The notes under the pieces are model-generated. The model was not told the origin of the DNA. It ran no database searches and saw only the letters and a program-made list of their open reading frames with translations. Below, piece by piece: positions 4,100-6,267 of a stretch of 35,264 nucleotides of DNA; positions within the stretch are counted from its first letter, which is position 1, and every line of letters starts with the position of its first letter. The stretch covers positions 1 through 35,264 of the forward strand of contig CAMAZK010000019.1 of NCBI GenBank assembly GCA_945863205.1, in the 5' to 3' direction. The position numbers and the translations under genes are program-made. The DNA is from Akkermansia muciniphila (GTDB taxonomy: Bacteria > Verrucomicrobiota > Verrucomicrobiia > Verrucomicrobiales > Verrucomicrobiaceae).

Positions 4100-5173
4100 A
4101 TGGTCTGGAAACTTTTATCTGCCCTCTCCGCCGTCTGCCTCGGCGTCGCCTGTTATTTTGCTTGGACCAACCAGAAGGCTCTGGTGGAGGAGCGCAAACG
4201 CGAGGCTTACTTCACGGCCAATCTCAAAGAAGTGCAGGATCACAAGGCTCTGGCCGGTGAAGCGAAGAAGAATCGTGAAGCCCAGTTGGCCACCGCCACG
4301 ACTGACCTTGAGGCCACGAAGACTGCCGTGATCGACACCACGGCCAAGGCGCAGACCAAAGAGGCGGAACTCGCCGTGGCGAAGACGAATCTCGATCAGG
4401 TGACCAAAATCGTGAAGGATCTGGAGAAACAGATCGCAGACGCGGGAGACATCCCAGCGCTCCTTGCTCAGATTGAATCCATCAAGAAAGAGCGCGCGCA
4501 AGCCGAGGCTGCCCTGGCGAACCAGGTCCAGCGGTTCGCCGCCGCACAGGAGCGTGTCGGAAGTCTCACCGCTTCTGCCGTGGCCGCTGAAGAGCGCGAG
4601 GCCCGCGGTCGCCGTGGCATCGTGGATGACGATTTCACCGCAAACGTCACCCAATCCTTCACCGATTGGGGCTTTGTGGTCCTCAACAAGGGCAACGGCG
4701 GTGGCGTTTTTGCCAACGCCGACCTAGAAGTGAAGCGCGGCAAGGAAATCGTCGCCAAACTCAAGGTCCGCAATGTCGAGCAAAGCTCCTCTGTGGCCGA
4801 CTTGGTGAAAGGCAGTCTCGCCGAGGGCGAGCGCATCCGCCCGGGTGATCTCGTGGTGGCCGCAGCCGAGCAGAGCGCCAAGACCGCGAAGGGGGCCGGC
4901 GCTGCCGCTCCTGCTGGTGGTGCTGCCGCTGCCGCTCCGGCTGCGGATGCCGCAGCTCCCGCTCCGACCGCACCCGCTATGGATTCGGATCCTTTCGGGG
5001 CTCCGATGGCTCCAACTCCGGCTGCTCCGGCGGCCTCCGATCCTTTTGGTGCACCGGCGGCCCCCGCTCCCGCCCCTGCGATGGGTGCTGATCCCTTCGG
5101 CGCTGCTCCATCGGCCCCTCCGGCCGCCGGGACGCCAGCGGCTCCGAGCACGGCCGATCCATTCGGCAATTGA
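4100..5173 (+). CDS. Membrane-anchored coiled-coil protein with C-terminal 'DWGFV' domain and Ala/Pro/DPFG tail
   Basis: 357 residues, family not recognised. Layout: one N-terminal membrane segment (3-22) with nothing else like a signal; a long Ala/Glu/Lys/Gln-rich coiled coil (about 25-170); a compact domain (about 178-255) containing DWGFVVLNKG (189-198), VKRGKEIV, KVRNVEQSS and IRPGDLVV (246-253); then an Ala/Pro-rich, probably disordered tail with four DPFG motifs. The next gene encodes a protein of the same plan with DWGFV at almost the same residue number, so the two are paralogues made by tandem duplication. The domain's glycine spacing and closing 'PGD-V' suggest a small beta-barrel, as in MreC or FlgT C-termini, but I cannot show homology. 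Probably a periplasm-facing scaffold or envelope protein (inference). Confidence 0.8.
   Translation: MVWKLLSALSAVCLGVACYFAWTNQKALVEERKREAYFTANLKEVQDHKALAGEAKKNREAQLATATTDLEATKTAVIDTTAKAQTKEAELAVAKTNLDQVTKIVKDLEKQIADAGDIPALLAQIESIKKERAQAEAALANQVQRFAAAQERVGSLTASAVAAEEREARGRRGIVDDDFTANVTQSFTDWGFVVLNKGNGGGVFANADLEVKRGKEIVAKLKVRNVEQSSSVADLVKGSLAEGERIRPGDLVVAAAEQSAKTAKGAGAAAPAGGAAAAAPAADAAAPAPTAPAMDSDPFGAPMAPTPAAPAASDPFGAPAAPAPAPAMGADPFGAAPSAPPAAGTPAAPSTADPFGN
4988..5167 (+). repeat. Four DPFG-motif repeats in an Ala/Pro-rich tail
   Basis: Within the gene at 4100-5173, DPFG(A) recurs at residues 297, 314, 331 and 353, spaced 17, 17 and 22 residues by Ala/Pro-rich linkers. The last copy is two residues from the C-terminus (DPFGN). 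Regularly spaced short linear motifs in a disordered tail suggest a multivalent binding peptide; the partner is unknown. The paralogue at 5225 lacks this tail. Confidence 0.8.
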
Positions 5174-5224
5174 GCCCCGATCTGAACGCCTCTCTTTTCT
5201 GAACCCCAGTTATTCCTTCCTGCC

Positions 5225-6013
5225 ATGACCAAAGTCCTCTTCATCCTCAGCGCCGTCGTCATCCTGGTGGCCAGCTTCTTCGCCTACCAGAACGGTCGTG
5301 AATTTGCCACCGTCCGCACCAACATCGCTTCCCTCAGCACCCAGCTCCAGACGGAAGTGAACGCCGACAAAAAGGTCATCGCCGAGGTGGGACAACTCGT
5401 CGCCGACATCGGGCGCGTGCAGGGGGAACTGGATGTCGAAGCGGAAAAGCTGAAGGCGCAGAAGAACAAGCTTGCCAACGCTGAGAGCGAATCCGTCCGC
5501 ACGCAGGAGGAACTGGACGTCAAGGTGAAGCAGCAGCAGAAGTTGGCCGATGATCTCGCCAAGCTTCCCAAAGACGTGAAGGTCGAAACTCTCGCTGAAG
5601 ACATTGCCAAGCTCAAGAAGGACAAAATTGAGTATGAGGCTCAGGCAGAGGCGAAAGCCAAGGAGGTCGTTGCTGAAGAGGAAAAAGTGGCCGGAGTGCA
5701 GAGGCGTCTCGACGACGTCGTGCGCAAAATCGAGGAGCGCCGCAAGAATTTCGACCGCAACAGCCTGACCTCGCGTGTTCTGGCCGTGAACCACGATTGG
5801 GGTTTTGTGATCATTGACGCCGACAAGTCTGCCGGACTGACCCAGGACACCAAGATGATCGTGACGCGTGGACTGCAGACCGTCGGCAAGATCAGCGTCA
5901 TGAATGTCGATGGAGCCCGGACGATGGCCAGCATCGTACCGGATGCCGTCACCAACGGGCAGGTCATCATGCCGGGCGACCGTGTGATCCTCGAAAATCT
6001 CGTCCGGAATTGA
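5225..6013 (+). CDS. Membrane-anchored coiled-coil protein, paralogue of the preceding gene, no tail
   Basis: 262 residues. N-terminal membrane segment (4-21, LFILSAVVILVASFFAY), coiled coil of Lys/Glu/Ala heptads (about 30-178), then the same globular domain as the upstream gene: VNHDWGFVIIDA (188-199), IVTRGLQTVGK, VMNVDGA and IMPGDRVI (248-255). DWGF falls at 191 here and 189 in the neighbour, so anchor, coil and domain lengths are conserved although the coil sequences have diverged. It ends at the C-terminal edge of the domain. It lies 51 bases after the first gene and 23 bases before a lipoprotein, so the three are probably one transcript. Function unknown. Confidence 0.8.
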   Translation: MTKVLFILSAVVILVASFFAYQNGREFATVRTNIASLSTQLQTEVNADKKVIAEVGQLVADIGRVQGELDVEAEKLKAQKNKLANAESESVRTQEELDVKVKQQQKLADDLAKLPKDVKVETLAEDIAKLKKDKIEYEAQAEAKAKEVVAEEEKVAGVQRRLDDVVRKIEERRKNFDRNSLTSRVLAVNHDWGFVIIDADKSAGLTQDTKMIVTRGLQTVGKISVMNVDGARTMASIVPDAVTNGQVIMPGDRVILENLVRN

Positions 6014-6036
6014 TCCGGATACGTTTGGTCCCTTGT

Positions 6037-6267
6037 ATGAAGACGCATTCCGTCATTTGCTCACTCCTCTTGGTTTCCACTGTTGCCTGTCTCCTGCCTT
6101 CATGTGCTTCGGACGGGCCGAAACGGAAAAAAGTAGTCGGCCCGGACAGCAGCCAGTACAGCACTCAGCCGTGGAATCGTCCCCGTAGTTGGGAAGCTGC
6201 CGCGCGTTCACCGCTCGGGAATGCAGCCCAGACCGGTGCGTTTGGCGGCGCTTTCCAGCAGAACTGA
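6037..6267 (+). CDS. Small lipoprotein of unknown function
   Basis: 76 residues from the ATG at 6037. A Lys at position 3, a hydrophobic stretch (8-20) and the lipobox LPSC (Cys23) mark it as a lipoprotein. The mature part is short and polar (KRKKVVGPDSS, then QPWNRP and a Gly/Ala/Phe-rich end), too small for an enzyme. The frame can be extended nine codons upstream but the signal peptide begins at this Met. It ends the coiled-coil gene group and is convergent with hisI, 27 bases apart. Confidence 0.7.
   Translation: MKTHSVICSLLLVSTVACLLPSCASDGPKRKKVVGPDSSQYSTQPWNRPRSWEAAARSPLGNAAQTGAFGGAFQQN

Follow-up and report, generated by a model that had tools for sequence, protein, structure and literature searches.

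Several described proteins resemble parts of the gene set reported here. FlgT, which has several domains and belongs to the flagellar basal body, is not known to carry a long anchored coil, and tethers of the Lpp type have a C-terminal lysine joined to peptidoglycan. To our knowledge, the joining of inner membrane, wall and outer membrane has been little studied in Verrucomicrobiota. The periplasmic part of E. coli MreC comprises a coil and two six-stranded barrels, according to the available part of a published account (PMC8804602). A small lipoprotein of Methylacidiphilum, WP_009060351, has been proposed to connect the peptidoglycan with the outer membrane, and its C-terminal part is said in the available portion of the source to be specific to Verrucomicrobiota (PMC10260701).

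Examination of the window, by which we mean the whole analysed stretch of 35,264 nucleotides from a contig labelled Akkermansia muciniphila, revealed three consecutive genes on the + strand coding for proteins A and B and for a small predicted lipoprotein (Table 1). The gaps are 51 bases between A and B and 23 bases between B and the lipoprotein gene, and the set is flanked by trpC (divergent) and hisI (convergent). The lipoprotein, which starts at ATG 6037, has a single copy in the genome of the window. A scan of genome contigs with B, which reaches close relatives only, returned 21 loci, all labelled as Verrucomicrobia or as members of that phylum, in which A and B are adjacent and are followed in most cases by the lipoprotein gene; this recurrence in most of the Verrucomicrobiaceae and Verrucomicrobiales loci shows that the three are real genes. 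A promoter scan at the locus found none, and terminators were at chance level. Neither A nor B nor the lipoprotein gave a Pfam or NCBIfam match above the curated cut-off, a Pfam search of the lipoprotein gave no match of note, and phage and plasmid collections searched with B gave no match. The Pfam and NCBIfam matches of A, B and single relatives were set aside as coil noise, and those of PDB sequence searches as coil noise or chance. We propose, with a probability of roughly 0.4, that the locus represents one version of an envelope module which occurs across the phylum and is made of an inner-membrane coil-barrel scaffold and an outer-membrane lipopeptide, in which the scaffold gene was duplicated once in Verrucomicrobiales.

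Table 1. Features of the coil-barrel and lipoprotein locus in the window.
Feature	Position	Strand	Basis
Protein A (357 aa), with hydrophobic anchor at the N terminus, then helical coil, barrel and Ala/Pro tail	4100..5173	+	ORF, alignment, model
Barrel domain of A (DWGFVV...RPGD)	4625..4873	+	Profile match E 8.0e-37; six model strands, residues 180-254
Ala/Pro tail of A, four DPFG motifs	4883..5170	+	DNA matches at 4988, 5039, 5090, 5156
Protein B (262 aa), with hydrophobic anchor at the N terminus, then helical coil and barrel, tail-less	5225..6013	+	ORF, alignment, model
Barrel domain of B (DWGFVI...MPGD)	5753..6010	+	Profile match E 1.2e-36; six model strands, residues 183-256
Small predicted lipoprotein, 76 aa before processing	6037..6267	+	ORF, recurrence in relatives
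Lipobox cysteine codon (LLPS-C)	6103..6105	+	Sequence reading
Conserved lipoprotein tail motif PWNRPRSWE	6169..6195	+	Comparison across loci

The original prediction had described A and B as paralogues sharing anchor, coil and C-terminal domain, and this was borne out: a sequence search aligns B with A over nearly the full length at 26% identity (E 1.7e-15), far beyond chance. The motifs on which it relied fall in invariant columns of the alignment, with DWGF starting at residue 189 of A and residue 191 of B, and PGD at 248 and 250, respectively; the four DPFG motifs are indeed confined to the tail of A and absent from B. Structure prediction of the C-terminal domain, which had been suggested as a check, gave a six-stranded barrel in both AlphaFold2 models, with a fold that resembles the C-terminal domain of FlgT and the core of MreC. 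The models, built from 27 rows for A and 31 for B, have a mean pLDDT of 77.8 and 76.8 and a low pTM of 0.38 and 0.35, respectively, and in both a long helix starts at residue 2, breaks off (at residues 115-117 in A, 114-120 in B) and is followed by a second helix and six strands. The nearest fold to the barrel of A is FlgT (8z5n, Z 11.1, 2.0 A over 75 residues; 3w1e, Z 10.1, 2.0 A over 74 residues), nearly tied with the N-terminal barrel of F1-ATPase (Z about 10), and chains of MreC are among the best Foldseek matches for A, while the periplasmic adaptors EmrA and MacA are among the matches of B. Weak Pfam matches were found among 30 barrel members to FlgT_C (18/30, best 1.7e-5) and to the MreC core (14/30, best 7.3e-4). 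Helical bundles and hairpins are the closest structural matches to the coil of B and, together with the break, make a straight rod of fixed reach doubtful. They suggest, without proving it, that the coil of B folds back, in which case the barrel may sit near the inner membrane.

The distribution of the barrel was followed with two profiles searched within the phylum, A3 for the C-terminal domain and A7 for a more diverse set of barrels; both, like the tree described below, rest on 80-90 columns. Of the 387 phylum genomes, the first matches 200 and the second 283, the latter including 230 of the 310 of good quality. With A3, 44 of the 45 genomes in the family of the window proved to have the tandem pair, the last one having its two copies on separate contigs, as did 44 of the 48 genomes that matched in a second family of the order, where 50 were scanned. 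The search for the pair in other Verrucomicrobia, suggested as a check, thus recovered it. Outside the order, most of the loci read have one coil-barrel gene, and most other families a single such protein of variable length. Rather than the A/B pair, the most widely conserved unit is an anchored coil that ends in a barrel of 82 residues and is followed by a minute lipoprotein. The lipoprotein, taken as an accessory in the original prediction, is instead the most widely conserved partner of the coil-barrel protein.

A tree of 150 barrel domains (90 columns, many forks unresolved, eleven short duplicate loci dropped beforehand) grouped the A rows of the order, 47 in all, in one clade (99/94), so that one duplication is older than both families. 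On this sequence comparison, the coil-barrel gene is duplicated once in Verrucomicrobiales, giving A and B; the tandem copies of families f28 and f25 have separate origins in the same tree. Three side observations concern individual loci. A third, short barrel paralogue with an anchor and a proline-rich linker, lacking the long coil, is found in the genome of the window (contig C17, L055:1162-1743), directly upstream of a gene that we take from its sequence to be a tlyA-like rRNA methylase, and similar layouts occur in L056, L058 and L059. A and B of L004, a contig labelled Akkermansia muciniphila, group in the tree with Prosthecobacter-like loci, and the label may be misassigned. Finally, two very long frames include a barrel (L155:455-2230, 591 aa; L143:3-2399, 798 aa) and perhaps have over-extended starts.

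The lipoprotein was counted with a frozen rule: a lipobox, then P[WQ]-x5-WE, with a mature part of less than 90 residues, on the same strand and downstream of the barrel gene. A lipobox, LLPS-C in the window, was thus required by sequence in every relative counted. In the first sample (40 loci, 36 families) 31 of 40 loci pass, an in-sample figure since the motif was framed on these loci; with the rule unchanged, 27 of 40 further loci pass out of sample. The loci of both samples were hand-picked from the listed matches, not at random, and several families recur in the second. Elsewhere in the loci the rule was satisfied by none of 7,814 ORFs in the first sample and none of 1,861 in the second, nor by any of 1,861 shuffled ORFs. 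Among the nine misses of the first sample, four (L103, L104, L110, L116) carry a small lipoprotein with a degenerate tail; the thirteen of the second include two degenerate tails (L128, L142) and four loci of family f28 (L151-L154). In f28 (L074, L086, L151-L154) coil-barrel genes are present, in tandem in L074, L151 and L152, and no PWN lipoprotein was recognisable nearby. The four loci examined in genus g5, which belongs to the second family and has small, perhaps Akkermansia-like genomes, carry a lipoprotein gene 70-75 bases past B whose tail has diverged (L042, L043, L052, L064). The putative docking motif is thus not universal, given the apparent lack of such a lipoprotein in f28 and the diverged tails of g5. 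In a further g5 locus, B is followed by a tandem of two small lipoproteins whose tails are related (L065:5405-5929, - strand).

Of 57 distinct lipoproteins, 37 begin no more than 31 bases from the stop codon of the barrel gene, and in five cases the two overlap by exactly 4 bases. Their mature length is mostly 28-50 residues, and the conserved part is restricted to a tail of the form P-W-N-x-P-x-x-W-E, as in PWNRPQSWEG; this motif is kept in L112 and L117, where the barrels have lost the Trp. Aspartate at position +2 is the inner-membrane retention signal of Enterobacteria, as stated in the available part of the source (PMC10260701). It occurs in none of the 57 distinct lipoproteins, the rule being that of Enterobacteria and possibly not valid in Verrucomicrobiota.

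Since the other neighbouring genes are ordinary housekeeping genes that vary between loci, adjacency is the sole functional link between the coil-barrel protein and the lipoprotein. In the proposed module, the first component would be a protein held in the inner membrane by an N-terminal anchor that is not cleaved, with a long helical coil in the periplasm leading to a C-terminal beta barrel of the FlgT-C/MreC type, and the second, encoded directly downstream, a minute lipoprotein of about 28-50 residues when mature, probably in the outer membrane. The tail of the lipopeptide would dock either on the coil-barrel protein or on some machine that this protein scaffolds, so that the partners would meet in the periplasm and link the inner membrane to the outer membrane. 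This reading is favoured by the breadth of the barrel across the phylum, the lipoprotein just downstream on the same strand, the lack of Asp at +2, the conserved pairing, the single clade of A and the FlgT-like fold of the barrel. It is weakened by the coil-barrel genes of f28 that have no such lipoprotein, the diverged tails of g5, the barrels that have lost the Trp beside a lipoprotein with its motif, and the low pTM of the models. A more tentative version goes further: the inner-membrane coil-barrel itself would capture the PWNxPxxWE tail of a lipoprotein among the smallest of the outer membrane, which would constitute a new phylum-wide linkage of inner and outer membranes, its receptor being specialised into an A/B pair in Verrucomicrobiales.

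Somewhat less probable is a scaffold for peptidoglycan synthesis or cell shape, in which an MreC-like coil-barrel would organise cell-wall enzymes near the inner membrane and the lipoprotein would be an outer-membrane activator of a synthase, as LpoB is in E. coli. The succession of anchor, coil and barrel, the MreC folds retrieved for A and the weak MreC matches in Pfam favour this reading. However, a canonical MreC is encoded elsewhere in the genome (contig C84), followed by two genes presumed from their sequences to code for an MreD-like and a penicillin-binding-protein-like product, which means that A and B are not the MreC of this genome; moreover, only one barrel is predicted, and none of the cell-wall genes is a constant neighbour. 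It is also unlikely that both the coil-barrel and the lipoprotein belong, as separate parts with no contact between them, to a larger machine for secretion or transport, with a FlgT-like barrel packing against a ring of the outer envelope. The closeness of the barrel fold to FlgT and the presence of EmrA and MacA among the matches of B speak for such a machine, but the loci read showed no recognisable flagellar or secretin gene next to the module, and its occurrence in most of the genomes sampled is more like that of a housekeeping function. Least likely is an obligatory A-B heterodimer of fixed length spanning the periplasm, for which the tandem pairing, the common architecture and the coil break at the same place can be invoked, but which fits poorly with the single copy of most other families and with an anchor-to-motif distance that drifts in B and not in A.

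This distance also bears on the equal geometry from which the original prediction had derived a fixed reach. Within the order, complete A rows have 183-187 residues between anchor and motif, and B rows 185-199 (three A rows near 100 come from loci cut short, and rows without the motif pattern were left out). An equal reach would demand that the lengths of A and B vary together, so that a drift of about 14 residues in B alone counts against it. The DPFG tail, suggested there as a possible multivalent docking peptide, cannot be central to the mechanism, as a tail with DPF motifs is restricted, among the rows compared, to A rows of Verrucomicrobiaceae; no DPF motif was found in any A row of the second family, nor in L023, L074 and L083. 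In the proposed envelope module, A of Verrucomicrobiaceae would have gained this tail, which could recruit a further partner. DPFG was also considered as a docking motif used across the proteome and rejected: the genome has 59 DNA matches, with the sole group of four at A, and one other close pair (contig C69) lies inside no convincing protein.

The presence of the module in most of the genomes sampled in the phylum, together with the lack of any Pfam or NCBIfam match above cut-off, singles it out as a good candidate for a central role in the envelope. The tail of the lipoprotein is short enough for assays with synthetic peptides. A genome-wide transposon map of Verrucomicrobium spinosum has been published, as reported in the part of the article available (PMC12283558), which opens the essentiality of the module to look-up. 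Targeted mutagenesis of this species has been reported as well.

Compared with known systems, the module shares different traits with each of them. The C-terminal domain of FlgT (PF16538; PDB 3w1e, 8z5n) resembles the predicted barrel of A in its fold, with weak sequence matches; FlgT is named in the PDB titles as a flagellar basal-body protein, whereas A and B have an architecture of anchor, long coil and barrel, with a lipoprotein gene after it. MreC (PF04085) has the same order of anchor, coil and barrel and gives the weak matches in 14 of 30 members, but a Pfam search of A and B returned no MreC match, a single six-stranded barrel is modelled here (with low pTM) and the genes of A and B do not lie in an mre operon, their neighbours being trpC and hisI. 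Braun lipoprotein Lpp and other outer-membrane tethers are, like the product described here, very small lipoproteins with a possible link to the outer membrane. Lpp is a helical trimer, whereas the lipoprotein of the module is a Pro/Gly-rich peptide with a PWN...WE tail, almost always lacking a C-terminal lysine: that of the window ends in QN, and two out-of-sample tails end in K (L143, L150). WP_009060351, as far as it is described in the available text, differs from the lipoprotein of the module by its signal sequence (MKKVLLLLISCSLAFLA), its mature start CSNK and its amylase and galT neighbours, and on the same partial description it is not the lipoprotein adjoining the coil-barrel gene in L072. 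The original prediction that no system of this form had been described is supported by the literature searched, which covered few subscription papers and no bioRxiv preprints and gave no description of the module; the barrel fold itself is known, while its combination, on an anchored coil, with a tiny lipoprotein appears to be new.
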